A DNA stretch of 64,000 nucleotides from Pycnococcus provasolii (taxonomy: Eukaryota; Chlorophyta; Pseudoscourfieldiophyceae; Pseudoscourfieldiales; Pycnococcaceae), in NCBI GenBank assembly GCA_938743325.2, contig OW568861.1:1302001-1366000 (forward strand), in the 5' to 3' direction. The stretch's first letter is position 1. Every line of letters begins with the position of its first letter. This document shows positions 7,108 to 64,000 of this stretch, piece by piece. A program made the translations under genes and the position numbers. The notes beneath the pieces were generated by a model, which was not told the origin of the DNA, did no database searches, and saw only the letters and a list, made by a program, of their open reading frames with translations.

Positions 7108-7114
7108 CTTGTAC

Positions 7115-7130
7115 CTGCAAGAGCAGAGAC
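7115..7130 (-). other. Candidate 3' splice acceptor just upstream of the HTTM start
   Basis: On the minus strand TCTCTGCTCTTGCAG|GTACAAGATGG puts a pyrimidine tract and CAG directly 7 bases before the ATG at 7107. It could end a 5' UTR intron. I could not pick a single donor; several GTGG candidates lie between 7140 and 7170. Confidence 0.4.
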
Positions 7131-7284
7131 TTCTTTGGTGGCCGAGGCGTTGTCTCCACCACCACCACACGAAGGAGAAAGCGCGGGACGACCCCATGGC
7201 ATAGGTCGCTCAGGGGCACGGCATTACCACAGGACCTGGAGGGGCACGTGCAAGGCTGGGCAGGCGGGAGGGGAGGGGAGGCTG

Positions 7285-7311
7285 CTAACCCTAACCCTAA
7301 TCCTAGCCCTC
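7285..7311. repeat. Short telomere-like repeat (CCCTAA type)
   Basis: CTAACCCTAACCCTAATCC followed by a decayed unit TAGCCCT, so about four units of CCCTAA type. On the minus strand it reads TTAGGG and lies about 180-200 bp upstream of the HTTM start codon. It is too short for a chromosome end. It matches the type of motif found upstream of DEK. Confidence 0.8.
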
Positions 7312-7622: not shown

Positions 7623-10012
7623 TTAGTATTCGAAGGTAAGGCCGTCCGTCGATAAGTCGCAGTTGTTCGCGCTCACCTCAACGGCTACAGACCCGGGGCC
7701 ACGACCTGGGCTCTTGCATGTGATGACCGTTTCAGAGACGTACGTCGCCCCAATCGGCCCGGACGTGCCGAATCGGCAGTGTAACCTGTCCGCCTGCGCA
7801 AAGTTGCGACCGGTAACGAATACGTCGATGCCCCCAAATCTTGGACCAATAGAGGGCGACACGCCACTCACCGTCGGCGCAGGCTGGTATGTGTATGGGA
7901 CCTTGCGCTCACCAAAATCAACGCCATTTAGCGCAGCGTCGACGTTCACCTTTCTCACTGTCTTGACTGCTGAGCCCGGCGCTTCCGCCACCGCCAGCAT
8001 GGTGCTGACTGAGACGAAAGGGGCCGAAGTGTCCCCGAAATGGAGCCGCATTGCATCGTGACGATCTTGCAGTAGATCGTGACCTTGAAGGAAGACAACA
8101 GTGCCACCCTCCGACATGCCAAATGCAGGAGCCGCGAAGGCAAGTGCAGGCGCCGCGAGGAATTCAAAGTCCACGTCAATAAGGCGGCGATCATAAACAA
8201 AGTCTGCCACGTGCGCGATAGCGACCTTGCCTGCCGCCCTTGGCGCTGTCATGCACAACGCACTTGTTCCCGCACCATGTAGCGCGAAAGATGTCAAGGC
8301 GTTACCTTCCACGCATATGGGCAGGCGCTGCACGACGTCTTGCGACAGCGCGGAGCCAAATATGGTTATGCTCGTACCTCCCAAGATAGTGCCGCTAGCA
8401 GGAGTCGCCGCCACCACGCGAGGGGCGAGGTGGTACCTTACAGTGTGCGCAACCCCAAAGTCGCGGCCATTGTTAGCGAATGTCAAAGCACGATCACCCG
8501 CAGGTCGCGCCGGAAGGCGGCAGCGAGCCGCGACAGCCCCACGAGCAAGTGCGGGAGCAAACACAATCGAATCCAACGTACAGAGCGATCCCACAGTTCC
8601 TGCTATGTGCTTGCCGTGCAATTCAACCAACTGACCTCCAACCTCGCTGCTCGTGTCCGGAGTAATCCTAAAAAGACTCGCCGGCGCTTCGTACAGGTAT
8701 GATGCAAGAGCTGGCTTGCAGGCTGTCTGAGCATGTTTGACGCCAACATGCACCGCCGATGCCTCCGGAGCGGGTGGTGCCTCGCATATCATCAAGCGTG
8801 AGGAGATGAAGTTTGACTCGGCAGTCTGGCTGCCAAAGTAGCACGTGCTCACATCAGCTCGCATATTTGTAGCCTCTACGTGAACCAGCGTGCCGCCTCC
8901 AAACGAGCCATGCGCAGGCATCATGCCAACCATAACCACCGGATCTAGGTACTCGAACTGGTGCTGCTCGCCGACATAACTGATAGGCTGCGAGAAAGAA
9001 GAGGCGATGTTCAGCGCAGCAAAACCAGCTCTTGAACTCATCGGCGCGAGCAGGCGGAGAACACCCGATGCGTGCAATTCAACTGGAGCGTCACTGCCTG
9101 CAACAACCGCCGTCATATCCATCGAGTGAACACCGAGACGGTGAGACGGAGGTGAGTGAAGCAATACCACTTCTCCACCGCACGTGTCGAGGACAACCGA
9201 AGCCCCGTCCATTGCAGATTCGTGAGCCGAGACTGCGGCGTGAAGCTCGTAGGGGTCATGAAATTGAAAATGTCCTAGATGTGCCGTGCAGCCATGAACC
9301 TCCTCGAACAAGAGGCTCGCCGATGATGGCTGGCGAGCAGGCGATATGCACTCGATTCGATTTTCATGGACAATTCCTGTGACTTGCACGGAGTCGAAGT
9401 GACACTTGCCTGATGTCTCACCATACAGGCTCACACCGTTGACAGCAACCAGTGCACCTCCCGCAACGTCTCCGTGTAACACGTCGTCAGCCAAGGTGAT
9501 CACAGACTTTGGTAACATGCCAAAGTCAAGTGCATTGCTAGAGACGGCACGCGCAGAGTCATCTATAATTGACAGACGAACTGGAGATGGATTTTGCGGC
9601 GGAGGAATTATTTCGCACAAAGCAACGGCGGATGACAAGACTTGGGTTTTGGTGCCAAGTGAACCATCAAATGAACACCTGAGTCCACCAGACGCAAGAT
9701 ACCCAATACCTATGTTTGAGCCGGATATCGAGATGTATCCTCCACCGCAAGATGCGCTAGTAGATGGATGAGACGAGCGCAAATGCATCGGAGATACAGA
9801 TTCAAATTGCATATCGAAGACATCAGCTGCTCGCTTGAAATCCACTACTTGCCGCAACGACACGAAACCTTGTCTATCGATGCGAATATCAAAAGGCAAG
9901 ACTTCGTAAAGCTGTCCAGTGCGATGGTATGTTTCTAGCGGATGCCACATACGATTATACGCGGTGATCTGCACGGACGTCTTCAATTCATGCCAAATCG
10001 TACGAGGTGCAG
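7623..10012 (-). other. C-terminal non-tandem IPT/TIG region of the giant protein
   Basis: About 796 residues carrying roughly eight diverse IPT/TIG-like domains. Signature pieces include SASCGGGYISISGSNIG..CSF, GSFGGGTLVHVEATNM..CYFG, SEVGGQLVELHGKHI, GTILGGTSITIFGSAL, GMSEGGTVVFLQGHDLL and, last, GPRFGGIDVFVTGRNF..CRFG..ITCKSPG. Domains differ strongly from each other, contain lysine and asparagine, and have mixed codon use, so this is the ancient, non-homogenised end of the protein. The frame is open throughout. Confidence 0.8.
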
Positions 10013-13000
10013 ATTCGTAGATTAGTGCATTTCTAGTATATCTGTACTTGTGTGCTTCTGAAACTAAAGCACGTGATTGACTTACTAGGCTAATCATGGC
10101 TTCAGAAGGATCATGTGCAGGCGAAATACAAACCATGTCGGTTGGTGCAATTTGTTGGAGCAAGATTCGACCAACATTACCAAATGAGCAAAACAATCCA
10201 CCGCCATCTAATTGATTTCCAGATAGCGTCAGAGTTGTACCACCAGATTCCGAACCATGCAATGGCAGAATACTCGTCAAATCTGGATTCGAAAAACCAT
10301 GCAATTTTAACTCCCCAGCGGATGATGCCTCCAAGCCAGACAAAAACAGACCTCTACTCTCTTGAAGGTGGACATTCACATTGCATTGTAATAATGTAGA
10401 AGAGACAAAGTTCACAGAGCAAGATGTATTTCCAAGGCCAAGAGAAGTACGCAAGTCAAAATTAGAACCTTTCACATTCAGCACAAGCTCAGCTTCAAAC
10501 AATATCAATGACGGATAAACATGCGAAATAAACGCTTCCAGCCCAACATCAAAATGCACAACAGAAGGAGGAACCACAACAGATCCGCCGCTCACGCGCA
10601 GCCACTGCTCCGCCGACGCGCCCATCGTCAGCCGGCCGCCTGATACCAGACCCACCTCAGTGAAGCCAGCCGCCAGACCGCCGCCCAGCGTGCACTCGAT
10701 CCAGCCAGATGAAAGGAACACGCCCGCGTACTCCGTGCCGCCGATCGAGCATCGCACCGGCGACTCAGAGCTCACGCCCGTGCCGTACACGCTCACTGTC
10801 GCGCCGCCAGACGTCGACACGCGTGCGGGCGATGCGGCGAGCACGCGCACCGACGATGCAGATGCGTACGTGTGCGCGTCCGACACCTGGTGCTGCACGC
10901 CCTGTGTCATCGAGAACGGAACCGCGTCCGAGCCGGACGACGGCACCGAGCACCACACCTGCTCCGCGCTCGTCCACTGCGAAGACACCGCCACCGCGCC
11001 GAAGCGACACGATGGCGGGTGCGACGCCGCGAACCCGGACCCAGACACCTCGACGCGATCCGCGCCAGTCAGACCCGTCACTGACTCCACGCCAGCCGAC
11101 GCAAGCTCGTCCGGCGCGATCGAAGATACGCGCCAGCCCTGCATCGACGCTGACACGTACGCGCCAGATCCTGTCGACGAGACCGACGATGCGAGCGCGG
11201 ATGACACAAACGTCACAGCAGACGACGAGGCGACACCGACCAGCAGATCGGAGCCAGACAGCCATACCACAGTCTCTATGCCTGACACGACAGCGCGAGG
11301 ATACGACGCCGTCACGCGACCGGGTACGACGTACGACACTGACCCGACGTGATCGCCGTCCGCGAGCTGCAGCGATCGGAAGCCAGCAGACATCGCAGGA
11401 AGCGTGCACGTCGACGAGGACGATGCGCATGCCGCCTGCTCGCCGCCGCCAACCACCAGCGACGTCGGACGCGGGCCAGATATCAGCGACACGATCACGG
11501 ATCCGCCCGTCAGCGACGATAGCACGCCCGACGCAGAGTACGCCAACAAGCGCGACGAGGCCGTGTACTCGTACGATGTCCACGACGCGCCCACGCGCTG
11601 GGCGCCTACGCCAAGACTCACGCCCGACGAGGACGGAGCGCGTGCAGGCGAAACGCACTCGTACACGCCCGACCCCGCGCGACGCGTCCACACCATCGAA
11701 GTCGTGCCGAACGAGCACTGCCATGCCGAAGACAGACCGCCGGACGCAGACACCTCCACCGCCGTGCCGCCCGACTCTGACCCTGACGGCGGCGACGCGC
11801 CCGTCACAGACGCGCCGCCGTCGCCCGCCACCTCCAGACGAGCCATCGACGCAGATGTCACCTCACACCGCCAAAGCGACGAAGATGCCATCGACGACGT
11901 TGAGCCGCACAAGCCGCCGTCGAACATGTGCGCGCCTATCACGTCCACCAACGAGCCGCCCGTAGACAACACCACTGACGGATGCACAACAGACACAGAA
12001 GCTGAGTCCGATACGTCCACGAGCGCGCGAGGACCCAGCACGCGCACTGAGCCGCCGCTCACGCGCAGCCACTGCTCCGCCGACGCGCCCATCGTCAGCC
12101 GGCCGCCCGATACCAGACCCACCTCAGTGAAGCCAGCCGCCAGACCGCCGCCCAGCGTGCACTCGACCCAGCCAGATGAAAGGAACACGCCCGCGTACTC
12201 CGTGCCGCCGATCGAGCATCGCACCGGCGACTCAGAGCTCACGCCCGTGCCGTACACGCTCACTGTCGCGCCGCCAGACGTCGACACGCGCGCGGGCGAT
12301 GCGGCGAGCACGCGCACCGACGATGCAGATGCGTACGTGTACGCGTCCGACACCTGGTGCTGCACGCCCTGCGTCATCGAGAACGGAACCGCGTCCGAGC
12401 CGGACGACGGCACCGAGCACCACACCTGCTCCGCGCTCGTCCACTGCGAAGACACCGCCACCGCGCCGAAGCGACACGATGGCGGGTGCGACGCCGCGAA
12501 CCCGGACCCAGACACCTCGACGCGATCCGCGCCAGTCAGACCCGTCACTGATTCCACGCCAGCCGACGCAAGCTCGTCCGGCGCGATCGAAGATACGCGC
12601 CAGCCCTGCGTCGACGCTGACACGTACGCGCCAGATCCTGTCGACGAGACCGACGATGCGAGCGCGGATGACACAAACGTCACAGCAGACGACGAGGCGA
12701 CACCGACCAGCAGATCGGAGCCAGACAGCCATACCACAGTCTCTATGCCTGACACGACAGCGCGAGGATACGACGCCGTCACGCGACCGGGTACGACGTA
12801 CGACACTGACCCGACGTGATCGCCGTCCGCGAGCTGCAGCGATCGGAAGCCAGCAGACATCGCAGGAAGCGTGCACGTCGACGAGGACGATGCGCATGCC
12901 GCCTGCTCGCCGCCGCCAACCACCAGCGACGTCGGACGCGGGCCAGATATCAGCGACACGACCACGGATCCGCCCGTCAGCGACGATAGCACGCCCGACG

Positions 13001-16000
13001 CAGAGTACGCCAACAAGCGCGACGAGGCCGTGTACTCGTACGATGTCCACGACGCGCCCACGCGCTGGGCGCCTACGCCAAGACTCACGCCCGACGAGGA
13101 CGGAGCGCGTGCAGGCGAAACGCACTCGTACACGCCCGACCCCGCGCGACGCGTCCACACCATCGAAGTCGTGCCGAACGAGCACTGCCATGCCGAAGGC
13201 AGACCGCCGGACGCAGACACCTCCACCGCCGTGCCGCCCGACTCTGACCCTGACGGCGGCGACGTGCCCGTCACAGACGCACCGCCGTCGCCCGTCACCT
13301 CCAGACGAGCCATCGACGCAGATGTCACCTCGCACCGCCAAAGCGACGAAGATGCCATCGACGACGTTGAGCCGCACAAGCCGCCGTCGAACATGTGCGC
13401 GCCTATCACGTCCACCAACGAGCCGCCCGTAGACAACACCACCGACGGACGCACGCGTGATATCGAAGCTGAGTCCGATACGTCCACGAGCGCGCGAGGA
13501 CCCAGCACGCGCACTGAGCCGCCGCTCACGCGCAGCCACTGCTCCGCCGACGCGCCCATCGTCAGCCGGCCGCCTGATACCAGACCCACCTCAGTGAAGC
13601 CAGCCGCCAGACCGCCGCCCAGCGTGCACTCGACCCAGCCCGATGAAAGGAACACGCCCGCGTACTCCGTGCCGCCGATCGAGCATCGCACCGGCGACTC
13701 AGAGCTCACGCCCGTGCCGTACACGCTCACTGTCGCGCCGCCAGACGTCGACACGCGCGCGGGCGATGCGGCGAGCACGCGCACCGACGATGCAGATGCG
13801 TACGTGTACGCGTCCGACACCTGGTGCTGCACGCCCTGCGTCATCGAGAACGGAACCGCGTCCGAGCCGGACGACGGCACCGAGCACCACACCTGCTCCG
13901 CGCTCGTCCACTGCGAAGACACCACCACCGCGCCGAAGCGACACGATGGCGGGTGCGACGCCGCGAAGCCGGACCCAGACACCTCGACGCGATCCGCGCC
14001 AGTCAGGCCGTCCGCACCCTCGATCGCGGGATACGAGACCTCGTCAAGTGCCGTCAGAGGTGCGCGCCAGCCCTGCGTTGACGCTGACACGTACGCGCCA
14101 GATCCTGTCGACGAGACCGACGATGCGAGCGCGGATGACACAAACGTCACAGCAGACGACGAGGCGACACCGACCAGCAGATCGGAGCCAGACAGCCATA
14201 CCACAGTCTCTATGCCTGACACGACAGCGCGAGGATACGACGCCGTCACGCGACCGGGTACGACGTACGACACTGACCCGACGTGATCGCCGTCCGCGAG
14301 CTGCAGCGATCGGAAGCCAGCAGACATCGCAGGAAGCGTGCACGTCGACGAGGACGATGCGCATGCCGCCTGCTCGACGCCGCCAACCACCAGCGACGTC
14401 GGACGCGGGCCAGATATCAGCGACACGACCACGGATCCGCCCGTCAGCGACGATAGCACGCCCGACGCAGAGTACGCCAACAAGCGCGACGAGGCCGTGT
14501 ACTCGTACGATGTCCACGACGCGCCCACGCGCTGGGCGCCTACGCCAAGACTCACGCCCGACGAGGACGGAGCGCGTGCAGGCGAAACGCACTCGTACAC
14601 GCCCGACCCCGCGCGACGCGTCCACACCATCGAAGTCGTGCCGAACGAGCACTGCCACGCCGAAGACAGACCGCCGGACGCAGACACCTCCACCGCCGTG
14701 CCGCCCGACTCTGACCCTGACGGCGGCGACGCGCCTGTCACAGACGCACCGCCGTCGCCCGTCACCTCCAGACGAGCCATCGACGCAGATGTCACCTCGC
14801 ACCGCCAAAGCGACGAAGATGCCATCGACGACGTTGAGCCGCACAAGCCGCCGTCAAACATGTGCGCGCCTATCACGTCCACCAACGAGCCGCCCGTAGA
14901 CAACACCACCGACGGACGCACAACAGACACAGAAGCTGAGTCCGATACGTCCACGAGCGCGCGAGGACCCAGCACGCGCACTGAGCCGCCGCTCACGCGC
15001 AGCCACTGCTCCGCCGACGCGCCCATCGTCAGCCGGCCGCCCGATACCAGACCCACCTCAGTGAAGCCAGCCGCCAGACCGCCGCCCAGCGTGCACTCGA
15101 CCCAGCCCGATGAAAGGAACACGCCCGCGTACTCCGTGCCGCCGATCGAGCATCGCACCGGCGACTCAGAGCTCACGCCCGTGCCGTACACGCTCACTGT
15201 CGCGCCGCCAGACGTCGACACGCGCGCGGGCGATGCGGCGAGCACGCGCACCGACGATGCAGATGCGTACGTGTACGCGTCCGACACCTGGTGCTGCACG
15301 CCCTGTGTCATCGAGAACGGAACCGCGTCCGAGCCGGACGACGGCACCGAGCACCACACCTGCTCCGCGCTCGTCCACTGCGAAGACACCACCACCGCGC
15401 CGAAGCGACACGATGGCGGGTGCGACGCCGCGAACCCGGACCCAGACACCTCGACGCGATCCGCGCCAGTCAGGCCGTCCGCGCCCTCGATCGCGGGATA
15501 CGAGACCTCGTCAAGTGCCGTCAGAGGTGCGCGCCAACCCTGCGTCGACGCTGACACGTACGCGCCAGATCCTGTCGACGAGACCGACGATGCGAGCGCG
15601 GATGACACAAACGTCACAGCAGACGACGAGGCGACACCGACGAGTAGATCGGAGCCAGACAGCCATACCACAGTCTCTATGCCTGACACGACAGCGCGAG
15701 GATACGACGCCGTCACGCGACCGGGTACGACGTACGACACTGACCCGACGTGATCGCCGTCCGCGAGCTGCAGCGATCGGAAGCCAGCAGACATCGCAGG
15801 AAGCGTGCACGTCGACGAGGACGATGCGCATGCCGCCTGCTCGCCGCCGCCAACCACCAGCGACGTCGGACGCGGGCCAGATATCAGCGACACGACCACG
15901 GATCCGCCCGTCAGCGACGATAGCACGCCCGACGCAGAGTACGCCAACAAGCGCGACGAGGCCGTGTACTCGTACGATGTCCACGACGCGCCCACGCGCT

Positions 16001-19000
16001 GGGCGCCTACGCCAAGACTCACGCCCGACGAGGACGGAGCGCGTGCAGGCGAAACGCACTCGTACACGCCCGACCCCGCGCGACGCGTCCACACCATCGA
16101 AGTCGTGCCGAACGAGCACTGCCATGCCGAAGACAGACCGCCGGACGCAGACACCTCCACCGCCGTGCCGCCCGACTCTGACCCTGACGGCGGCGACGCG
16201 CGCGTCACAGACGCGCCGCCGTCGCCCGTCACCTCCAGACGAGCCATCGACGCAGATGTCACCTCGCACCGCCAAAGCGACGAAGATGCCATCGACGACG
16301 TTGAGCCGCACAAGCCGCCGTCGAACATGTGCGCGCCTATCACGTCCACCAACGAGCCGCCCGTAGACAACACCACCGACGGACGCACGCGTGATATCGA
16401 AGCTGAGTCCGATACGTCCACGAGCGCGCGAGGACCCAGCACGCGCACTGAGCCGCCGCTCACGCGCAGCCACTGCTCCGCCGACGCGCCCATCGTCAGC
16501 CGGCCGCCTGATACCAGACCCACCTCAGTGAAGCCAGCCGCCAGACCGCCGCCCAGCGTGCACTCGACCCAGCCCGATGAAAGGAACACGCCCGCGTACT
16601 CCGTGCCGCCGATCGAGCATCGCACCGGCGACTCAGAGCTCACGCCCGTGCCGTACACGCTCACTGTCGCGCCGCCAGACGTCGACACGCGCGCGGGCGA
16701 TGCGGCGAGCACGCGCACCGACGATGCAGATGCGTACGTGTACGCGTCCGACACCTGGTGCTGCACGCCCTGCGTCATCGAGAACGGAACCGCGTCCGAG
16801 CCGGACGACGGCACCGAGCACCACACCTGCTCCGCGCTCGTCCACTGCGAAGACACCGCCACCGCGCCGAAGCGACACGATGGCGGGTGCGACGCCGCGA
16901 ACCCGGACCCAGACACCTCGACGCGATCCGCGCCAGTCAGACCCGTCACTGACTCCACGCCAGCCGACGCAAGCTCGTCCGGCGCGATCGAAGATACGCG
17001 CCAGCCCTGCGTCGACGCTGACACGTACGCGCCAGATCCTGTCGACGAGACCGACGATGCGAGCGCGGATGACACAAACGTCACAGCAGACGACGAGGTG
17101 ACACCGACCAGCAGATCGGAGCCAGACAGCCATACCACAGTCTCTATGCCTGACACGACAGCGCGAGGATACGACGCCGTCACGCGACCGGGTACGACGT
17201 ACGACACTGACCCGACGTGATCGCCGTCCGCGAGCTGCAGCGATCGGAAGCCAGCAGACATCGCAGGAAGCGTGCACGTCGACGAGGACGATGCGCATGC
17301 CGCCTGCTCGCCGCCGCCAACCACCAGCGACGTCGGACGCGGGCCAGATATCAGCGACACGACCACGGATCCGCCCGTCAGCGACGATAGCACGCCCGAC
17401 GCAGAGTACGCCAACAAGCGCGACGAGGCCGTGTACTCGTACGATGTCCACGACGCGCCCACGCGCTGGGCGCCTACGCCAAGACTCACGCCCGACGAGG
17501 ACGGAGCGCGTGCAGGCGAAACGCACTCGTACACGCCCGACCCCGCGCGACGCGTCCACACCATCGAAGTCGTGCCGAACGAGCACTGCCATGCCGAAGG
17601 CAGACCGCCGGACGCAGACACCTCCACCGCCGTGCCGCCCGACTCTGACCCTGACGGCGGCGACGCGCCCGTCACAGACGCGCCGCCGTCGCCCGTCACC
17701 TCCAGACGAGCCATCGACGCAGATGTCACCTCGCACCGCCAAAGCGACGAAGATGCCATCGACGACGTTGAGCCGCACAAGCCGCCGTCGAACATGTGCG
17801 CGCCTATCACGTCCACCAACGAGCCGCCCGTAGACAACACCACCGACGGACGCACGCGTGATATCGAAGCTGAGTCCGATACGTCCACGAGCGCGCGAGG
17901 ACCCAGCACGCGCACTGAGCCGCCGCTCACGCGCAGCCACTGCTCCGCCGACGCGCCCATCGTCAGCCGGCCGCCTGATACCAGACCCACCTCAGTGAAG
18001 CCAGCCGCCAGACCGCCGCCCAGCGTGCACTCGACCCAGCCCGATGAAAGGAACACGCCCGCGTACTCCGCGCCGCCGATCGAGCATCGCACCGGCGACT
18101 CAGAGCTCACGCCCGTGCCGTACACGCTCACTGTCGCGCCGCCAGACGTCGACACGCGCGCCGGCGATGCGGCGAGCACGCGCACCGACGATGCAGATGC
18201 GTACGTGTACGCGTCCGACACCTGGTGCTGCACGCCCTCCGTCATCGAGAACGGAACCGCGTCCGAGCCGGACGACGGCACCGAGCACCACACCTGCTCC
18301 GCGCTCGTCCACTGCGAAGACACCACCACCGCGCCGAAGCGACACGATGGCGGGTGCGACGCCGCGAACCCGGACCCAGACACCTCGACGCGATCCGCGC
18401 CAGTCAGACCCGTCACTGACTCCACGCCAGCCGACGCAAGCTCGTCCGGCGCGATCGAAGATACGCGCCAGCCCTGCGTCGACGCTGACACGTACGCGCC
18501 AGATCCTGTCGACGAGACCGACGATGCGAGCGCGGATGACACAAACGTCACAGCAGACGACGAGGTGACACCGACCAGCAGATCGGAGCCAGACAGCCAT
18601 ACCACAGTCTCTATGCCTGACACGACAGCGCGAGGATACGACGCCGTCACGCGACCGGGTACGACGTACGACACTGACCCGACGTGATCGCCGTCCGCGA
18701 GCTGCAGCGATCGGAAGCCAGCAGACATCGCAGGAAGCGTGCACGTCGACGAGGACGATGCGCATGCCGCCTGCTCGCCGCCGCCAACCACCAGCGACGT
18801 CGGACGCGGGCCAGATATCAGCGACACGACCACGGATCCGCCCGTCAGCGACGATAGCACGCCCGACGCAGAGTACGCCAACAAGCGCGACGAGGCCGTG
18901 TACTCGTACGATGTCCACGACGCGCCCACGCGCTGGGCGCCTACGCCAAGACTCACGCCCGACGAGGACGGAGCGCGTGCAGGCGAAACGCACTCGTACA

Positions 19001-22000
19001 CGCCCGACCCCGCGCGACGCGTCCACACCATCGAAGTCGTGCCGAACGAGCACTGCCATGCCGAAGGCAGACCGCCGGACGCAGACACCTCCACCGCCGT
19101 GCCGCCCGACTCTGACCCTGACGGCGGCGACGCGCCCGTCACAGACGCGCCGCCGTCGCCCGTCACCTCCAGACGAGCCATCGACGCAGATGTCACCTCG
19201 CACCGCCAAAGCGACGAAGATGCCATCGACGACGTTGAGCCGCACAAGCCGCCGTCGAACATGTGCGCGCCTATCACGTCCACCAACGAGCCGCCCGTAG
19301 ACAACACCACCGACGGACGCACGCGTGATATCGAAGCTGAGTCCGATACGTCCACGAGCGCGCGAGGACCCAGCACGCGCACTGAGCCGCCGCTCACGCG
19401 CAGCCACTGCTCCGCCGACGCGCCCATCGTCAGCCGGCCGCCCGATACCAGACCCACCTCAGTGAAGCCAGCCGCCAGACCGCCGCCCAGCGTGCACTCG
19501 ACCCAGCCCGATGAAAGGAACACGCCCGCGTACTCCGTGCCGCCGATCGAGCATCGCACCGGCGACTCAGAGCTCACGCCCGTGCCGTACACGCTCACTG
19601 TCGCGCCGCCAGACGTCGACACGCGCGCGGGCGATGCGGCGAGCACGCGCACCGACGATGCAGATGCGTACGTGTACGCGTCCGACACCTGGTGCTGCAC
19701 GCCCTGCGTCATCGAGAACGGAACCGCGTCCGAGCCGGACGACGGCACCGAGCACCACACCTGCTCCGCGCTCGTCCACTGCGAAGACACCACCACCGCG
19801 CCGAAGCGACACGATGGCGGGTGCGACGCCGCGAACCCGGACCCAGACACCTCGACGCGATCCGCGCCAGTCAGGCCGTCCGCGCCCTCGATCGCGGGAT
19901 ACGAGACCTCGTCAAGTGCCGTCAGAGGTGCGCGCCAGCCCTGCGTCGACGCTGACACGTACGCGCCAGATCCTGTCGACGAGACCGACGATGCGAGCGC
20001 GGATGATACAAACGTCACAGCAGACGACGAGGCGACACCGACCAGCAGATCGGAGCCAGACAGCCATACCACAGTCTCTATGCCTGACACGACAGCGCGA
20101 GGATACGACGCCGTCACGCGACCGGGTACGACGTACGACACTGACCCGACGTGATCGCCGTCCGCGAGCTGCAGCGATCGGAAGCCAGCAGACATCGCAG
20201 GAAGCGTGCACGTCGACGAGGACGATGCGCATGCCGCCTGCTCGACGCCGCCAACCACCAGCGACGTCGGACGCGGGCCAGATATCAGCGACACGACCAC
20301 GGATCCGCCCGTCAGCGACGATAGCACGCCCGACGCAGAGTACGCCAACAAGCGCGACGAGGCCGTGTACTCGTACGATGTCCACGACGCGCCCACGCGC
20401 TGGGCGCCTACGCCAAGACTCACGCCCGACGAGGACGGAGCGCGTGCAGGCGAAACGCACTCGTACACGCCCGACCCCGCGCGACGCGTCCACACCATCG
20501 AAGTCGTGCCGAACGAGCACTGCCACGCCGAAGACAGACCGCCGGACGCAGACACCTCCACCGCCGTGCCGCCCGACTCTGACCCTGACGGCGGCGACGC
20601 GCCCGTCACAGACGCGCCGCCGTCGCCCGTCACCTCCAGACGAGCCATCGACGCAGATGTCACCTCGCACCGCCAAAGCGACGAAGATGCCATCGACGAC
20701 GTTGAGCCGCACAAGCCGCCGTCGAACATGTGCGCGCCTATCACGTCCACCAACGAGCCGCCCGTAGACAACACCACCGACGGACGCACGCGTGATATCG
20801 AAGCTGAGTCCGATACGTCCACGAGCGCGCGAGGACCCAGCACGCGCACTGAGCCGCCGCTCACGCGCAGCCACTGCTCCGCCGACGCGCCCATCGTCAG
20901 CCGGCCGCCTGATACCAGACCCACCTCAGTGAAGCCAGCCGCCAGACCGCCGCCCAGCGTGCACTCGACCCAGCCCGATGAAAGGAACACGCCCGCGTAC
21001 TCCGTGCCGCCGATCGAGCATCGCACCGGCGACTCAGAGCTCACGCCCGTGCCGTACACGCTCACTGTCGCGCCGCCAGACGTCGACACGCGCGCCGGCG
21101 ATGCGGCGAGCACGCGCACCGACGATGCAGATGCGTACGTGTACGCGTCCGACACCTGGTGCTGCACGCCCTGCGTCATCGAGAACGGAACCGCGTCCGA
21201 GCCGGACGACGGCACCGAGCACCACACCTGCTCCGCGCTCGTCCACTGCGAAGACACCGCCACCGCGCCGAAGCGACACGATGGCGGGTGCGACGCCGCG
21301 AACCCGGACCCAGACACCTCGACGCGATCCGCGCCAGTCAGACCCGTCACTGACTCCACGCCAGCCGACGCAAGCTCGTCCGGCGCGATCGAAGATACGC
21401 GCCAACCCTGCGTCGACGCTGACACGTACGCGCCAGATCCTGTCGACGAGACCGACGATGCGAGCGCGGATGACACAAACGTCACAGCAGACGACGAGGT
21501 GACACCGACCAGCAGATCGGAGCCAGACAGCCATACCACAGTCTCTATGCCTGACACGACAGCGCGAGGATACGACGCCGTCACGCGACCGGGTACGACG
21601 TACGACACTGACCCGACGTGATCGCCGTCCGCGAGCTGCAGCGATCGGAAGCCAGCAGACATCGCAGGAAGCGTGCACGTCGACGAGGACGATGCGCATG
21701 CCGCCTGCTCGCCGCCGCCAACCACCAGCGACGTCGGACGCGGGCCAGATATCAGCGACACGACCACGGATCCGCCCGTCAGCGACGATAGCACGCCCGA
21801 CGCAGAGTACGCCAACAAGCGCGACGAGGCCGTGTACTCGTACGATGTCCACGACGCGCCCACGCGCTGGGCGCCTACGCCAAGACTCACGCCCGACGAG
21901 GACGGAGCGCGTGCAGGCGAAACGCACTCGTACACGCCCGACCCCGCGCGACGCGTCCACACCATCGAAGTCGTGCCGAACGAGCACTGCCATGCCGAAG

Positions 22001-49000: not shown

Positions 49001-52000
49001 CAGATGCGTACGTGTACGCGTCCGACACCTGGTGCTGCACGCCCTGCGTCATCGAGAACGGAACCGCGTCCGAGCCGGACGACGGCACCGAGCACCACAC
49101 CTGCTCCGCGCTCGTCCACTGCGAAGACACCGCCACCGCGCCGAAGCGACACGATGGCGGGTGCGACGCCGCGAACCCGGACCCAGACACCTCGACGCGA
49201 TCCGCGCCAGTCAGACCCGTCACTGACTCCACGCCAGCCGACGCAAGCTCGTCAAGTGCCGTCAGAGGTGCGCGCCAGCCCTGCGTCGACGCTGACACGT
49301 ACGCGCCAGATCCTGTCGACGAGACCGACGATGCGAGCGCGGATGACACAAACGTCACAGCAGACGACGAGGCGACACCGACCAGCAGATCGGAGCCAGA
49401 CAGCCATACCACAGTCTCTATGCCTGACACGACAGCGCGAGGATACGACGCCGTCACGCGACCGGGTACGGCGTACGACACGGACCCGACGTGATCGCCG
49501 TCCGCGAGCTGCAGCGATCGGAAACCAGCAGACATCGCAGGAAGCGTGCACGTCGATGAGGACGATGCGCATGCCGCCTGCTCGACGCCGCCAACCACCA
49601 GCGACGTCGGACGCGGGCCAGATATCAGCGACACGACCACGGATCCGCCCGTCAGCGACGATAGCACGCCCGACGCAGAGTACGCCAACAAGCGCGACGA
49701 GGCCGTGTACTCGTACGATGTCCACGACGCGCCCACGCGCTGGGCGCCTACGCCAAGACTCACGCCCGACGAGGACGGAACGCGTGCAGGCGAAACGCAC
49801 TCGTACACGCCCGACCCCGCGCGACGCGTCCACACCATCGAAGTCGTGCCGAACGAGCACTGCCATGCCGAAGGCAGACCGCCGGACGCAGACACCTCCA
49901 CCGCCGTGCCGCCCGACTCTGACCCTGACGGCGGCGACGCGCCCGTCACAGACGCGCCGCCGTCGCCCGCCACCTCCAGACGAGCCATCGACGCAGATGT
50001 CACCTCACACCGCCAAAGCGACGAAGATGCCATCGACGACGTTGAGCCGCACAAGCCGCCGTCGAACATGTGCGCGCCTATCACGTCCACCAACGAGCCG
50101 CCCGTAGACAACACCACTGACGGATGCACAACAGACACAGAAGCTGAGTCCGATACGTCCACGAGCGCGCGAGGACCCAGCACGCGCACTGAGCCGCCGC
50201 TCACGCGCAGCCACTGCTCCGCCGACGCGCCCATCGTCAGCCGGCCGCCCGATACCAGACCCACCTCAGTGAAGCCAGCCGCCAGACCGCCGCCCAGCGT
50301 GCACTCGACCCAGCCCGATGAGAGGAACACGCCCGCGTACTCCGCGCCGCCGATCGAGCATCGCACCGGCGACTCAGAGCTCACGCCCGTGCCGTACACG
50401 CTCACTGTCGCGCCGCCAGACGCTGACACGCGCGCGGGCGATGCGGCGATCACGCGCACCGACGATGCAGATGCGTACGTGTACGCGTCCGACACCTGGT
50501 GCTGCACGCCCTGCGTCATCGAGAACGGAACCGCGTCCGAGCCGGACGACGGCACCGAGCACCACACCTGCTCCGCGCTCGTCCACTGCGAAGACACCGC
50601 CACCGCGCCGAAGCGACACGATGGCGGATGCGACGCCGCGAACCCGGACCCAGACACCTCGACGCGATCCGCGCCAGTCAGGCCGTCCGCGCCCTCGATC
50701 GCGGGATACGAGACCTCGTCAAGTGCCGTCAGAGGTGCGCGCCAGCCCTGCGTCGACGCTGACACGTACGCGCCAGATCCTGTCGACGAGACCGACGATG
50801 CGAGCGCGGATGACACAAACGTCACAGCAGACGACGAGGCGACACCGACCAGCAGATCGGAGCCAGACAGCCATACCACAGTCTCTATGCCTGACACGAC
50901 AGCGCGAGGATACGACGCCGTCACGCGACCGGGTACGGCGTACGACACGGACCCGACGTGATCGCCGTCCGCGAGCTGCAGCGATCGGAAACCAGCAGAC
51001 ATCGCAGGAAGCGTGCACGTCGACGAGGACGATGCGCATGCCGCCTGCTCGACGCCGCCAACCACCAGCGACGTCGGACGCGGGCCAGATATCAGCGACA
51101 CGACCACGGATCCGCCCGTCAGCGACGATAGCACGCCCGACGCAGAGTACGCCAACAAGCGCGACGAGGCCGTGTACTCGTACGATGTCCACGACGCGCC
51201 CACGCGCTGGGCGCCTACGCCAAGACTCACGCCCGATGAGGACGGAACGCGTGCAGGCGAAACGCACTCGTACACGCCCGACCCCGCGCGACGCGTCCAC
51301 ACCATCGAAGTCGTGCCGAACGAGCACTGCCACGCCGAAGGCAGACCGCCGGACGCAGACACCTCCACCGCCGTGCCGCCCGACTCTGACCCTGACGGCG
51401 GCGACGCGCCTGTCACAGACGCGCCGCCGTCGCCCGTCACCTCCAGACGAGCCATCGACGCAGATGTCACCTCGCACCGCCAAAGCGACGAAGATGCCAT
51501 CGACGACGTTGAGCCGCACAAGCCGCCGTCGAACATGTGCGCGCCTATCACGTCCACCAACGAGCCGCCCGTAGACAACACCACTGACGGATGCACAACA
51601 GACACAGAAGCTGAGTCCGATACGTCCACGAGCGCGCGAGGTCCCAGCACGCGCACTGAGCCGCCGCTTACGCGCAGCCACTGCTCCGCCGACGCGCCCA
51701 TCGTCAGCCGGCCGCCCGATACCAGACCCACCTCAGTGAAGCCAGCCGCCAGACCGCCGCCCAGCGTGCACTCGACCCAGCCCGATGAGAGGAACACGCC
51801 CGCGTACTCCGTGCCGCCGATCGAGCATCGCACCGGCGACTCAGAGCTCACGCCCGTGCCGTACACGCTCACTGTCGCACCGCCAGACGTCGACACGCGC
51901 GCGGGCGATGCGGCGAGCACGCGCACCGACGATGCAGATGCGTACGTGTACGCGTCCGACACCTGGTGCTGCACGCCCTGCGTCATCGAGAACGGAACCG

Positions 52001-55000
52001 CGTCCGAGCCGGACGACGGCACCGAGCACCACACCTGCTCCGCGCTCGTCCACTGCGAAGACACCGCCACCGCGCCGAAGCGACACGATGGCGGGTGCGA
52101 CGCCGCGAACCCGGACCCAGACACCTCGACGCGATCCGCGCCAGTCAGGCCGTCCGCGCCCTCGATCGCGGGATACGAGACCTCGTCAAGTGCCGTCAGA
52201 GGTGCGCGCCAGCCCTGCGTCGACGCTGACACGTACGCGCCAGATCCTGTCGACGAGACCGACGATGCGAGCGCGGATGACACAAACGTCACAGCAGACG
52301 ACGAGGCGACACCGACCAGCAGATCGGAGCCAGACAGCCATACCACAGTCTCTATGCCTGACACGACAGCGCGAGGATACGACGCCGTCACGCGACCGGG
52401 TACGGCGTACGACACTGACCCGACGTGATCGCCGTCCGCGAGCTGCAGCGATCGGAAACCAGCAGACATCGCAGGAAGCGTGCACGTCGACGAGGACGAT
52501 GCGCATGCCGCCTGCTCGCCGCCGCCAACCACCAGCGACGTCGGACGCGGGCCAGATATCAGCGACACGACCACGGATCCGCCCGTCAGCGACGATAGCA
52601 CGCCCGACGCAGAGTACGCCAACAAGCGCGACGAGGCCGTGTACTCGTACGACGTCCACGACGCGCCCACGCGCTGGGCGCCTACGCCAAGACTCACGCC
52701 CGACGAGGACGGAACGCGTGCAGGCGAAACGCACTCGTACACGCCCGACCCCGCGCGACGCGTCCACACCATCGAAGTCGTGCCGAACGAGCACTGCCAC
52801 GCCGAAGGCAGACCGCCGGACGCAGACACCTCCACCGCCGTGCCGCCCGACTCTGACCCTGACGGCGGCGACGCGCCCGTCACAGACGCACCGCCGTCGC
52901 CCGTCACCTCCAGACGAGCCATCGACGCAGATGTCACCTCGCACCGCCAAAGCGACGAAGATGCCATCGACGACGTTGAGCCGCACAAGCCGCCGTCGAA
53001 CATGTGCGCGCCTATCACGTCCACCAACGAGCCGCCCGTAGACAACACCACTGACGGATGCACAACAGACACAGAAGCTGAGTCCGATACGTCCACGAGC
53101 GCGCGAGGACCCAGCACGCGCACTGAGCCGCCGCTCACGCGCAGCCACTGCTCCGCCGACGCGCCCATCGTCAGCCGGCCGCCCGATACCAGACCCACCT
53201 CAGTGAAGCCAGCCGCCAGACCGCCGCCCAGCGTGCACTCGACCCAGCCCGATGAGAGGAACACGCCCGCGTACTCCGCGCCGCCGATCGAGCATCGCAC
53301 CGGCGACTCAGAGCTCACGCCCGTGCCGTACACGCTCACTGTCGCACCGCCAGACGCTGACACGCGCGCGGGCGATGCGGCGAGCACGCGCACCGACGAT
53401 GCAGATGCGTACGTGTACGCGTCCGACACCTGGTGCTGCACGCCCTGCGTCATCGAGAACGGAACCGCGTCCGAGCCGGACGACGGCACCGAGCACCACA
53501 CCTGCTCCGCGCTCGTCCACTGCGAAGACACCGCCACCGCGCCGAAGCGACACGATGGCGGGTGCGACGCCGCGAACCCGGACCCAGACACCTCGACGCG
53601 ATCCGCGCCAGTCAGACCCGTCACTGACTCCACGCCAGCCGACGCAAGCTCGTCCGGCGCGATCGAAGATACGCGCCAGCCCTGCGTCGACGCTGACACG
53701 TACGCGCCAGATCCTGTCGACGAGACCGACGATGCGAGCGCGGATGACACAAACGTCACAGCAGACGACGAGGCGACGCCGACCAGCAGATCGGAGCCAG
53801 ACAGCCATACCACAGTCTCTATGCCTGACACGACAGCGCGAGGATACGACGCCGTCACGCGACCGGGTACGGCGTACGACACTGACCCGACGTGATCGCC
53901 GTCCGCGAGCTGCAGCGATCGGAAACCAGCAGACATCGCAGGAAGCGTGCACGTCGACGAGGACGATGCGCATGCCGCCTGCTCGCCGCCGCCAACCACC
54001 AGCGACGTCGGACGCGGGCCAGATATCAGCGACACGACCACGGATCCGCCCGTCAGCGACGATAGCACGCCCGACGCAGAGTACGCCAACAAGCGCGACG
54101 AGGCCGTGTACTCGTACGATGTCCACGACGCGCCCACGCGCTGGGCGCCTACGCCAAGACTCACGCCCGACGAGGACGGAACGCGTGCAGGCGAAACGCA
54201 CTCGTACACGCCCGACCCCGCGCGACGCGTCCACACCATCGAAGTCGTGCCGAACGAGCACTGCCACGCCGAAGGCAGACCGCCGGACGCAGACACCTCC
54301 ACCGCCGTGCCGCCCGACTCTGACCCTGACGGCGGCGACGCGCCCGTCACAGACGCGCCGCCGTCGCCCGCCACCTCCAGACGAGCCATCGACGCAGATG
54401 TCACCTCGCACCGCCAAAGCGACGAAGATGCCATCGACGACGTTGAGCCGCACAAGCCGCCGTCGAACATGTGCGCGCCTATCACGTCCACCAACGAGCC
54501 GCCCGTAGACAACACCACTGACGGATGCACAACAGACACAGAAGCTGAGTCCGATACGTCCACGAGCGCGCGAGGACCCAGCACGCGCGCTGAGCCGCCG
54601 CTCACGCGCAGCCACTGCTCCGCCGACGCGCCCATCGTCAGCCGGCCGCCCGATACCAGACCCACCTCAGTGAAGCCAGCCGCCAGACCGCCGCCCAGCG
54701 TGCACTCGACCCAGCCCGATGAGAGGAACACGCCCGCGTACTCCGCGCCGCCGATCGAGCATCGCACCGGCGACTCAGAGCTCACGCCCGTGCCGTACAC
54801 GCTCACTGTCGCGCCGCCAGACGTCGACACGCGCGCGGGCGATGCGGCGAGCACGCGCACCGACGATGCAGATGCGTACGTGTACGCGTCCGACACCTGG
54901 TGCTGCACGCCCTGCGTCATCGAGAACGGAACCGCGTCCGAGCCGGACGACGGCACCGAGCACCACACCTGCTCCGCGCTCGTCCACTGCGAAGACACCG

Positions 55001-58000
55001 CCACCGCGCCGAAGCGACACGATGGCGGGTGCGACGCCGCGAACCCGGACCCAGACACCTCGACGCGATCCGCGCCAGTCAGACCCGTCACTGACTGCAC
55101 GCCAGCCGACGCAAGCTCGTCCGGCGCGATCGAAGATACGCGCCAGCCCTGCGTCGACGCTGACACGTACGCGCCAGATCCTGTCGACGAGACCGACGAT
55201 GCGAGCGCGGATGACACAAACGTCACAGCAGACGACGAGGCGACACCGACCAGCAGATCGGAGCCAGACAGCCATACCACAGTCTCTATGCCTGACACGA
55301 CAGCGCGAGGATACGACGCCGTCACGCGACCGGGTACGGCGTACGACACGGACCCGACGTGATCGCCGTCCGCGAGCTGCAGCGATCGGAAACCAGCAGA
55401 CATCGCAGGAAGCGTGCACGTCGACGAGGACGATGCGCATGCCGCCTGCTCGCCGCCGCCAACCACCAGCGACGTCGGACGCGGGCCAGATATCAGCGAC
55501 ACGACCACGGATCCGCCCGTCAGCGACGATAGCACGCCCGACGCAGAGTACGCCAACAAGCGCGACGAGGCCGTGTACTCGTACGATGTCCACGACGCGC
55601 CCACGCGCTGGGCGCCTACGCCCAGACTCACGCCCGATGAGGACGGAGCGCGTGCAGGCGAAACGCACTCGTACACGCCCGACCCCGCGCGACGCGTCCA
55701 CACCATCGAAGTCGTGCCGAACGAGCACTGCCATGCCGAAGGCAGACCGCCGGACGCAGACACCTCCACCGCCGTGCCGCCCGACTCTGACCCTGACGGC
55801 GGCGACGCGCCCGTCACAGACGCGCCGCCGTCGCCCGTTACCTCCAGACGAGCCATCGACGCAGATGTCACCTCACACCGCCAAAGCGACGAAGATGCCA
55901 TCGACGACGTTGAGCCGCACAAGCCGCCGTCGAACATGTGCGCGCCTGTCACGTCCACCAACGAGCCGCCCGTAGACAACACCACTGACGGATGCACAAC
56001 AGACACAGAAGCTGAGTCCGATACGTCCACGAGCGCGCGAGGACCCAGCACGCGCACTGAGCCGCCGCTCACGCGCAGCCACTGCTCCGCCGACGCGCCC
56101 ATCATCAGCCGGCCGCCCGATACCAGACCCACCTCAGTGAAGCCAGCCGCCAGACCGCCGCCCAGCGTGCACTCGACCCAGCCCGATGAGAGGAACACGC
56201 CCGCGTACTCCGCGCCGCCGATCGAGCATCGCACCGGCGACTCAGAGCTCACGCCCGTGCCGTACACGCTCACTGTCGCGCCGCCAGACGCTGACACGCG
56301 CGCGGGCGATGCGGCGAGCACGCGCACCGACGATGCAGATGCGTACGTGTACGCGTCCGACACCTGGTGCTGCACGCCCTGCGTCATCGAGAACGGAACC
56401 GCGTCCGAGCCGGACGACGGCACCGAGCACCACACCTGCTCCGCGCTCGTCCACTGCGAAGACACCGCCACCGCGCCGAAGCGACACGATGGCGGATGCG
56501 ACGCCGCGAACCCGGACCCAGACACCTCGACGCGATCCGCGCCAGTCAGGCCGTCCGCGCCCTCGATCGCGGGATACGAGACCTCGTCAAGTGCCGTCAG
56601 AGGTGCGCGCCAGCCCTGCGTCGACGCTGACACGTACGCGCCAGATCCTGTCGATGAGACCGACGATGCGAGCGCGGATGACACAAACGTCACAGCAGAC
56701 GACGAGGTGACACCGACCAGCAGATCGGAGCCAGACAGCCATACCACAGTCTCTATGCCTGACACGACAGCGCGAGGATACGACGCCGTCACGCGACCGG
56801 GTACGGCGTACGACACTGACCCGACGTGATCGCCGTCCGCGAGCTGCAGCGATCGGAAACCAGCAGACATCGCAGGAAGCGTGCACGTCGACGAGGACGA
56901 TGCGCATGCCGCCTGCTCGCCGCCGCCAACCACCAGCGACGTCGGACGCGGGCCAGATATCAGCGACACGACCACGGATCCGCCCGTCAGCGACGATAGC
57001 ACGTCCGACGCAGAGTACGCCAACAAGCGCGACGAGGCCGTGTACTCGTACGATGTCCACGACGCGCCCACGCGCTGGGCGCCTACGCCAAGACTCACGC
57101 CCGATGAGGACGGAACGCGTGCAGGCGAAACGCACTCGTACACGCCCGACCCCGCGCGACGCGTCCACACCATCGAAGTCGTGCCGAACGAGCACTGCCA
57201 TGCCGAAGGCAGACCGCCGGACGCAGACACCTCCACCGCCGTGCCGCCCGACTCTGACCCTGACGGCGGCGACGCGCCCGTCACAGACGCGCCGCCGTCG
57301 CCCGTCACCTCCAGACGAGCCATCGACGCAGATGTCACCTCGCACCGCCAAAGCGACGAAGATGCCATCGACGACGTTGAGCCGCACAAGCCGCCGTCGA
57401 ACATGTGCGCGCCTATCACGTCCACCAACGAGCCGCCCGTAGACAACACCACTGACGGATGCACAACAGACACAGAAGCTGAGTCCGATACGTCCACGAG
57501 CGCGCGAGGACCCAGCACGCGCACCGAGCCGCCGCTCACGCGCAGCCACTGCTCCGCCGACGCGCCCATCGTCAGCCGGCCGCCCGATACCAGACCCACC
57601 TCAGTGAAGCCAGCCGCCAGACCGCCACCCAGCGTGCACTCGACCCAGCCCGATGAGAGGAACACGCCCGCGTACTCCGCGCCGCCGATCGAGCATCGCA
57701 CCGGCGACTCAGAGCTCACGCCCGTGCCGTACACGCTCACTGTCGCACCGCCAGACGCTGACACGCGCGCGGGCGATGCGGCGAGCACGCGCACCGACGA
57801 TGCAGATGCGTACGTGTACGCGTCCGACACCTGGTGCTGCACGCCCTGCGTCATCGAGAACGGAACCGCGTCCGAGCCGGACGACGGCACCGAGCACCAC
57901 ACCTGCTCCGCGCTCGTCCACTGCGAAGACACCACCACCGCGCCGAAGCGACACGATGGCGGATGCGACGCCGCGAACCCGGACCCAGACACCTCGACGC

Positions 58001-61000
58001 GATCCGCGCCAGTCAGGCCGTCCGCGCCCTCGATCGCGGGATACGAGACCTCGTCAAGTGCCGTCAGAGGTGCGCGCCAGCCCTGCGTCGACGCTGACAC
58101 GTACGCGCCAGATCCTGTCGACGAGACCGACGATGCGAGCGCGGATGACACAAACGTCACAGCAGACGACGAGGTGACACCGACCAGCAGATCGGAGCCA
58201 GACAGCCATACCACAGTCTCTATGCCTGACACGACAGCGCGAGGATACGACGCCGTCACGCGACCGGGTACGGCGTACGACACTGACCCGACGTGATCGC
58301 CGTCCGCGAGCTGCAGCGATCGGAAACCAGCAGACATCGCAGGAAGCGTGCACGTCGACGAGGACGATGCGCATGCCCCCTGCTCGACGCCGCCAACCAC
58401 CAGCGACGTCGGACGCGGGCCAGATATCAGCGACACGACCACGGATCCGCCCGTCAGCGACGATAGCACGCCCGACGCAGAGTACGCCAACAAGCGCGAC
58501 GAGGCCGTGTACTCGTACGATGTCCACGACGCGCCCACGCGCTGGGCGCCTACGCCAAGACTCACGCCCGACGAGGACGGAACGCGTGCAGGCGAAACGC
58601 ACTCGTACACGCCCGACCCCGCGCGACGCGTCCACACCATCGAAGTCGTGCCGAACGAGCACTGCCATGCCGAAGGCAGACCGCCGGACGCAGACACCTC
58701 CACCGCCGTGCCGCCCGACTCTGACCCTGACGGCGGCGACGCGCCCGTCACAGACGCGCCGCCGTCGCCCGCCACCTCCAGACGAGCCATCGACGCAGAT
58801 GTCACCTCACACCGCCAAAGCGACGAAGATGCCATCGACGACGTTGAGCCGCACAAGCCGCCGTCGAACATGTGCGCGCCTACCACGTCCACCAACGAGC
58901 CGCCCGTAGACAACACCACTGACGGATGCACAACAGACACAGAAGCTGAGTCCGATACGTCCACGAGCGCGCGAGGTCCCAGCACGCGCACCGAGCCGCC
59001 GCTCACGCGCAGCCACTGCTCCGCCGACGCGCCCATCGTCAGCCGGCCGCCTGATACCAGACCCACCTCAGTGAAGCCAGCCGCCAGACCGCCGCCCAGC
59101 GTGCACTCGACCCAGCCCGATGAGAGGAACACGCCCGCGTACTCCGTGCCGCCGATCGAGCATCGCACCGACGACTCAGAGCTCACGCCCGTGCCGTACA
59201 CGCTCACTGTCGCGCCGCCAGACGCTGACACGCGCGCGGGCGATGCGGCGAGCACGCGCACCGACGATGCAGATGCGTACGTGTACGCGTCCGACACCTG
59301 GTGCTGCACGCCCTGCGTCATCGAGAACGGAACCGCGTCCGAGCCGGACGACGGCACCGAGCACCACACCTGCTCCGCGCTCGTCCACTGCGAAGACACC
59401 GCCACCGCGCCGAAGCGACACGATGGCGGGTGCGACGCCGCGAACCCGGACCCAGACACCTCGACGCGATCCGCGCCAGTCAGACCCGTCACTGACTCCA
59501 CGCCAGCCGACGCAAGCTCGTCCGGCGCGATCGAAGATACGCGCCAGCCCTGCGTCGACGCTGACACGTACGCGCCAGATCCTGTCGACGAGACCGACGA
59601 AGCGAGCGCGGATGACACAAACGTCACAGCAGACGACGAGGCGACGCCGACCAGCAGATCGGAGCCAGACAGCCATACCACAGTCTCTATGCCTGACACG
59701 ACAGCGCGAGGATACGACGCCGTCACGCGACCGGGTACGGCGTACGACACGGACCCGACGTGATCGCCGTCCGCGAGCTGCAGCGATCGGAAACCACCAG
59801 ACATCGCAGGAAGCGTGCACGTCGACGAGGACGATGCGCATGCCGCCTGCTCGACGCCGCCAACCACCAGCGACGTCGGACGCGGGCCAGATATCAGCGA
59901 CACGACCACGGATCCGCCCGTCAGCGACGATAGCACGTCCGACACAGAGTACGCCAACAAGCGCGACGAGGCCGTGTACTCGTACGACGTCCACGACGCG
60001 CCCACGCGCTGGGCGCCTACGCCCAGACTCACGCCCGACGAGGACGGAACGCGTGCAGGCGAAACGCACTCGTACACGCCCGACCCCGCGCGACGCGTCC
60101 CCACCATCGAAGTCGTGCCGAACGAGCACTGCCATGCCGAAGGCAGACCGCCGGATGCAGACACCTCCACCGCCGTGCCGCCCGACTCTGACCCTGACGG
60201 CGGCGACGCGCCCGTCACAGACGCGCCGCCGTCGCCCGCCACCTCCAGACGAGCCATCGACGCAGATGTCACCTCGCACCGCCAAAGCGACGAAGATGCC
60301 ATCGAAGACGTTGAGCCGCACAAGCCGCCGTCGAACATGTGCGCGCCTATCACGTCCACCAACGAGCCGCCCGTAGACAACACCACTGACGGATGCACAA
60401 CAGACACAGAAGCTGAGTCCGATACGTCCACGAGCGCGCGAGGACCCAGCACGCGCACCGAGCCGCCGCTCACGCGCAGCCACTGCTCCGCCGACGCGCC
60501 CATCGTCAGCCGGCCGCCCGATACCAGACCCACCTCAGTGAAGCCAGCCGCCAGACCGCCACCCAGTGTGCACCCGACCCAGCCCGATGAGAGGAACACG
60601 CCCGCGTACTCCGCGCCGCCGATCGAGCATCGCACCGGCGACTCAGAGCTCACGCCCGTGCCGTACACGCTCACTGTCGCGCCGCCAGACGTCGACACGC
60701 GCGCGGGCGATGCGGCGATCACGCGCACCGACGATGCAGATGCGTACGTGTACGCGTCCGACACCTGGTGCTGCACGCCCTGCGTCATCGAGAACGGAAC
60801 CGCGTCCGAGCCGGACGACGGCACCGAGCACCACACCTGCTCCGCGCTCGTCCACTGCGAAGACACCACCACCGCGCCGAAGCGACACGATGGCGGGTGC
60901 GACGCCGCGAACCCGGACCCAGACACCTCGACGCGACCCGCGCCAGTCAGGCCGTCCGCGCCCTCGATCGCGGGATACGAGACCTCGTCAAGTGCCGTCA

Positions 61001-64000: not shown

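Follow-up and report, generated by a model that had tools for sequence, protein, structure and literature searches.

A reading frame of at least 18,791 codons encoding a tandem array of IPT/TIG-like domains in a probably eukaryotic genome

The locus and its neighbors

On the minus strand of the window, the 64,000-nucleotide stretch of DNA that was analyzed (0 N), one frame runs open from the window edge to a single stop codon (Table 1). Its 18,791 codons are a lower bound, as the 5' part of the gene lies beyond the window edge, and the visible chain amounts to 1.86 MDa. The size and strand that had originally been predicted for this frame were borne out.

The frame contains 36 complete tandem units, each of exactly 1,467 bp (489 aa). 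An anchor peptide occurs 37 times, always exactly 489 residues apart; over about 53 kb the array has thus retained no net insertion or deletion. At a shift of 1,467 bp, adjacent units were 96.3-99.5% identical in DNA, and pairwise protein identity between units was 93.5-99.8% (mean 97.0%). With the unit borders moved by 18 residues, all 36 units were distinct in both DNA and protein, with 132 variable sites among them. The 19 codons at the window edge repeat the end of the next unit and belong to a further unit, which indicates that the array continues outside the window. At its other end the repeat breaks off abruptly early in the third domain, where a unique tail of 986 residues begins. Tandem Repeats Finder, in which the longest period was 500, did not detect the array.

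Several smaller features lie beside the giant gene. A plus-strand frame (3229-4134) carries a DEK C-terminal domain (PF08766, 9.3e-14) and an acidic low-complexity stretch. On the minus strand, a 592-aa frame (5419-7197) matched no Pfam family above cut-off (YlaH, 18.2 of 27 bits) and no PDB entry better than E 0.47, and a search with six short peptide patterns, which covers close relatives only, gave no match; by eye it has a multi-membrane-spanning look, which we take to be reminiscent of HTTM/vitamin-K carboxylase proteins. A small protein that looks secreted and whose gene appears to have a 121-nt GT-AG intron (about 4290-5080, minus strand) and a frame that by eye appears Tyr-rich and secreted (3-1055, minus strand) both lacked a Pfam family. 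Short telomere-like CCCTAA repeats are found just downstream of the giant gene (7287-7305), and a TGTAA motif follows 76 bases beyond the first base of its stop codon. The window gave 0 Rfam matches and 0 tRNAs. The apparent intron and the DEK_C gene, and more weakly the negative scans for relatives, indicate that the host is probably eukaryotic.

Table 1. Coordinates of the giant gene and its parts within the window.
Feature	Position	Strand	Remark
Open reading frame, at least 18,791 codons plus TAA	7623..63998	-	TAA at 7623-7625; continues past window edge
36 complete units of 1,467 bp (489 aa)	11130..63941	-	no net indel
Last 19 codons of a further unit	63942..63998	-	residues identical to end of next unit
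Example unit, D1-D6	37536..39002	-	borders by eye
Example unit, D1	38730-39002	-	Pfam TIG above cut-off
Example unit, D2	38460-38729	-	Pfam TIG above cut-off
Example unit, D3	38226-38459	-	border by eye
Example unit, D4	37965-38225	-	Pfam TIG above cut-off
Example unit, D5	37728-37964	-	border by eye
Example unit, D6	37536-37727	-	border by eye
18-residue joint cassette at D6-D1 border	38949..39002	-	B version in this unit
Partial last unit (D1 + D2)	10584..11129	-	abrupt divergence afterwards
Unique C-terminal tail, 986 aa	7626..10583	-	11 Ig-like domains by eye, 7/11 above TIG cut-off
Last IPT/TIG domain	7626..7886	-	profile 1-84 of 84; ends at last residue before stop

Coding evidence and domain structure

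When the consensus unit was shuffled 2000 times with its dinucleotides preserved, a single frame held 7.4 stop codons on average and stayed open in 3 shuffles. As the 36 copies of the unit are not independent of one another, stronger evidence for coding comes from the pattern of change between them. Variable sites fell on codon positions 1, 2 and 3 in the numbers 34, 29 and 69 (n = 132). Per possible change, nonsynonymous transitions (41/942) were rarer than synonymous ones (50/492), a ratio of 0.43 (Fisher P 3e-5); this test takes in the variable joint described below, and the relatedness of the copies makes its P values optimistic. At synonymous rates 6.9 stop-making changes were expected, and 0 internal stops were present. 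One variant base in the joint would by itself give a stop and was found only together with a second change in the same codon; even when it is counted as a stop, the result is 1 against 6.9 expected (P about 0.008, Poisson). These data show that the giant array is real protein-coding sequence. A non-coding satellite was ruled out by the selection tests together with the TIG homology described below, and a dead array is contradicted by the lack of internal stops and by selection on the frame.

The nonsynonymous/synonymous ratio alone cannot choose the strand, as it was equally low in one of the antisense frames, which has a single stop in the consensus unit and shares its third codon positions with the sense frame. 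The minus strand was chosen since the TIG homology lies there and the plus-strand frames of one unit (471 and 174 aa) matched no Pfam family at E 1. Long plus-strand frames across the array (471 aa per unit, and twice 960 aa) were considered as genes and taken to be shadows.

The last 2,443 residues of the protein matched Pfam TIG at 1e-89, in agreement with the IPT/TIG character claimed for it in the original prediction. TIG membership was defined as a PF01833 match above the Pfam gathering score, and the domains of the unit were tested singly in one unit. That prediction had six beta-sandwiches in each unit, and three of them (D1, D2 and D4) were recognized directly; an uncut unit likewise showed three TIG stretches. 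In that unit D3 and D5 had no Pfam match, and D6 matched only another family, PF09099, weakly (15.1 bits against a cut-off of 22). Over the last 2,443 residues PF09099 sums to 32.8 bits, and no single stretch passes. In the tail, seven of the eleven domains passed the TIG cut-off, two had no match, and the remaining two scored 20.8 bits against the cut-off of 20.9 (9255-9518) and a weak 13.5 bits (8430-8687). The tail's diverged counterpart of D3 is a TIG match of 28 bits, which makes six sandwiches per unit, with D3, D5 and D6 as IPT/TIG members, plausible. By alignment, the first four domains of the tail follow the same order as D3-D6. This order, together with the clear TIG match of the D3 counterpart, suggests that the unit was copied from an older multi-IPT stretch. 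Counting domains with borders drawn by eye as well as Pfam-recognized ones, the visible chain holds 229 (36 x 6 + 13), within the 220-230 predicted. The final TIG domain is complete to the last profile position, so the protein probably ends at the TAA.

A structure model of D4, built from 14 window sequences, reached a pLDDT of 83.9. Its top Foldseek matches in the PDB were the TIG domain of EBF1 (TM 0.88/0.86) and then that of CAMTA1, and the modeled D4 thus shows the TIG beta-sandwich fold. A model of one full unit followed by the D1 after it failed, with a pLDDT of 33, probably due to lack of sequence diversity. A profile of 17 window domains, searched against solved proteins, matched plexin-A1 (2e-20) and Met (4e-10), with CAMTA1 and COE following.

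Composition and history of the array

Neither Lys nor Asn occurs among the 17,604 residues of the 36 units, whereas the tail (986 aa) has 16 Lys and 27 Asn. Since the units are copies of one another, this absence does not represent 36 independent cases, and in one consensus unit 5.8 AAN codons were expected from the margins and 0 observed (P 0.0015). On the coding strand, the frequency of A is low at each of the three codon positions, 0.08-0.12 in the array versus 0.19-0.22 in the tail. Side-chain nitrogen per residue was 0.19 in the array; the tail had 0.30, and four neighboring frames 0.33-0.40. Nitrogen economy is a possible cause of the missing Lys and Asn. Ser, Gly, Val and Ala make up 59% of the unit. 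The residues F, Y, M, I, N and K have a combined share of 6.7% in the array and 17.3% in the tail. Third-position GC was 0.788 in the array and 0.505 in the tail; the four neighboring frames (0.64-0.75) fall between the two, which makes the tail no less unusual than the array.

The unit is mildly acidic (29 D+E against 21 R), and the array has a computed pI of 5.1. Ten Cys residues, two in each of D1 to D5, occupy identical positions in all 36 units and may pair into disulphides. With 0 Asn, the array has no N-glycosylation motif. The highest 19-residue hydropathy in the tail was 1.43, and no strongly hydrophobic stretch was found there. A Ser-rich stretch of D6, from unit residue 451, reached at least 1.61 in 35 of 36 units and up to 1.88; we read it as a beta-sheet core, with a membrane segment in every unit as the alternative. 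The predicted length of about a micrometer holds for the contour of a straight chain, which for the visible part is about 0.9-1.1 µm at 4 nm per domain (the figure used in the original prediction) to 4.75 nm per domain (from the rod of the bacterial adhesin MpAFP); plexin IPT chains are curved, and the end-to-end length may therefore be shorter. The MpAFP four-domain rod measures 190 Å (PMC4083281).

Differences between units were counted over 1,413 sites, leaving out the joint, and ranged from 5 to 41 over 630 pairs, at most 2.9%. Neighboring units (distance 1) differed by a mean of 14.7, and units 30-33 apart by means of 28.8-30.2; only one pair lies 35 apart, and it had 23 differences. The longest stretch that matched exactly, in register, at two places in the array was 1,117 bp. 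Nearby units are thus more alike, which fits unequal exchange with local conversion and not a scrambled assembly. A second local variant, in D3, occurs in only six units (numbers 29-33 and 35).

The joint at the D6-D1 border (residues 1-18 of each unit) exists in two versions, with 20 units carrying A, 15 carrying B and one a hybrid that switches at Asp-Glu codons common to both. The commonest A and B forms differ at 27 of 54 bases. The order of A and B along the array was ordinary in its number of runs (P 0.50) and non-random at some lags. Among the eight lags examined, all with one-sided P values, units were alike in 24 of 29 pairs at lag 7 (P 0.00015), in a deficit of 8 of 34 at lag 2 (P 0.0006) and in a low 8 of 31 at lag 5 (P 0.003); lags 3 and 4 were somewhat high (P 0.017 and 0.024), and lags 1, 6 and 8 were ordinary. 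Blocks of 3-4 and of 7 units that were duplicated may have left this pattern. Elsewhere in the unit it is seen only faintly: mean differences were 15.6 at lag 3, 15.5 at lag 4 and 16.0 at lag 7, against 17.1 and 17.2 at lags 5 and 6.

Outside the joint, synonymous sites with two states, G/C and A/T, had G/C as the commoner state 42 times and A/T 9 times (P 3e-6); without singletons the counts were 25 versus 9 (P 0.009). At nonsynonymous sites they were 22 versus 15, which is not significant. GC-biased conversion would give such a synonymous skew, and codon preference or a recent change in mutation could do the same. We favor GC-biased conversion because tail and array, presumably parts of one message, differ in third-position GC.

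Interpretation and comparison with known systems

Taken as a whole, the locus is probably a real protein-coding gene of a eukaryotic microbe for a giant secreted or surface filament of IPT/TIG-like domains, stabilized by disulphides, whose array grew by in-frame exchange. Hundreds of serial beta-sandwiches would act as an extender or structural strand, with binding and anchoring functions at the chain ends; the C-terminal tail, a series of diverged IPT-like domains, has no strongly hydrophobic segment. The array may have arisen inside an older multi-IPT gene, one 489-codon block being multiplied by repeated in-frame unequal exchange and the units being kept similar by local gene conversion. 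An extracellular chain is favored on the strength of sequence similarity, as plexin and Met are its nearest sequences. Against this, IPT domains occur in intracellular transcription factors too, and Foldseek ranked EBF and CAMTA1 first, while the profile also matched CAMTA1 and COE.

Whether the filament itself is the product, as a strand of cell covering, flagellar hair or matrix that has no binding head, is a narrower question within this interpretation. The Pfam matches of the last 2,443 residues include no head domain, and the large share of Ser, Gly, Val and Ala in the unit and its side-chain nitrogen, below that of tail and neighbors, would suit such a strand; no feature of the window, however, links the giant protein to a hair or wall. 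We therefore hold this narrower version to be quite possible without expecting it. Rather unlikely, in our estimation, is a more far-reaching version in which the frame ranks among the longest uninterrupted eukaryotic coding exons and encodes a micrometer-scale extracellular filament free of Lys and Asn, with GC-biased conversion driving A-rich codons out and the joint versions ordered non-randomly as a mechanical or recognition code.

The giant frame is likely a single exon. Hidden in-frame introns, or several shorter genes in place of one, would be in keeping with the four donor-like GTRAG motifs of the consensus unit and with the intron apparent in a neighboring gene. Nonsynonymous changes also exceed synonymous ones in residues 40-79 (3 vs 1) and in the joint (14 vs 5), above the neutral share of about 2.3 to 1 derived from possible changes, although these counts are small. 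In the remaining 11 of 13 blocks of the unit, however, nonsynonymous changes were at most twice the synonymous ones; the consensus unit holds no acceptor-like Y6-N-YAG motif, and the three TIG stretches per unit likewise count against a split. We consider a split gene improbable. The possibility that the array is dead, or an assembly artifact with inflated copy number and scrambled order, recalls similar bacterial genes in which extreme repetition hampered sequencing (PMC4083281), yet it sits poorly with 36 units that all differ, with differences that grow with distance and with a window free of N. Accurate reads of a few kb could probably place the units, given the length of the longest exact match, and artifact or decay thus appears very improbable. 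Cleavage of a polyprotein into 489-residue pieces at the joint would account for the exact unit length and for one strongly variable joint per unit. Among dibasic sites, the only kind considered, the sole one per unit is an RR at residue 305, inside D4 and away from the joint, and such processing is hardly to be expected.

Giant Ig-like extender arrays are known in principle, and an IPT/TIG-based version is unusual. In region II of MpAFP, the ice adhesin of Marinomonas primoryensis, a 104-aa repeat present about 120 times (1.5 MDa) is proposed to form a rod of about 0.6 µm, and the repeats are described as identical in DNA (PMC4083281). Both proteins have a very long tandem array of Ig-like beta-sandwiches, and an extender role would follow by analogy. 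As that report describes it, MpAFP is bacterial and its unit is one Ca-dependent domain, whereas the unit described here has about six different IPT-type domains with Cys pairs in an array that is larger and probably eukaryotic. A C-terminal RTX secretion region was absent from the Pfam scan of the last 2,443 residues (E 0.01), which gave four families, none of them RTX.

The closest solved relatives by sequence are the IPT ectodomains of plexin and Met, which share serial IPT domains with the giant protein. Plexin and Met have few such domains, followed by membrane and signaling parts; the giant protein has hundreds of IPT-like domains and no membrane or signaling part in view. Fibrocystin/PKHD1L1 have an IPT array too, together with other domains and a membrane segment. 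No extra domain was found in the last 2,443 residues, nor does tail hydropathy exceed the value given above; the N-terminus lies beyond the window. Titin, an Ig/Fn3 beta-sandwich chain, and PKZILLA-1 are giant eukaryotic proteins as well, and to our knowledge neither is made of near-identical IPT blocks. The Ig I-set/Fn3 domains and kinase of titin-like proteins were not among the Pfam matches of the last 2,443 residues or of one unit, again with the N-terminus beyond the window. Titin is spread over 364 exons (PMC12620988), and PKZILLA is a polyketide synthase (PMC12300183). Dictyostelium Tgr proteins are protist proteins that share TIG domains with the giant protein; they are transmembrane, and their extracellular TIG domains take part in cell-cell binding (PMC12324515). 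A giant near-identical array is not mentioned for Tgr in the available portion of that paper.

Relatives were sought with six short peptide patterns, which cover close relatives only. For the unit, 6 pattern matches in viral contigs and 132 in genome contigs yielded 0 confirmed; for the tail, 3 matches in viral contigs yielded 0 confirmed. Such a protein was unreported among the matches listed from the open-access literature. New here are the array free of Lys and Asn, the 18-residue joint in two versions and the GC-biased synonymous variants.

If the interpretation as a filament is true, the protein would probably be to a eukaryote what the giant Ig-like extenders are to bacteria. The locus would be a natural experiment in how a reading frame that is open over more than 56 kb is multiplied and stays in frame, and bears on the upper size of an uninterrupted eukaryotic coding region. 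Through its variable sites the array records its own recombination history, which makes in-frame unequal exchange and GC-biased conversion directly testable.
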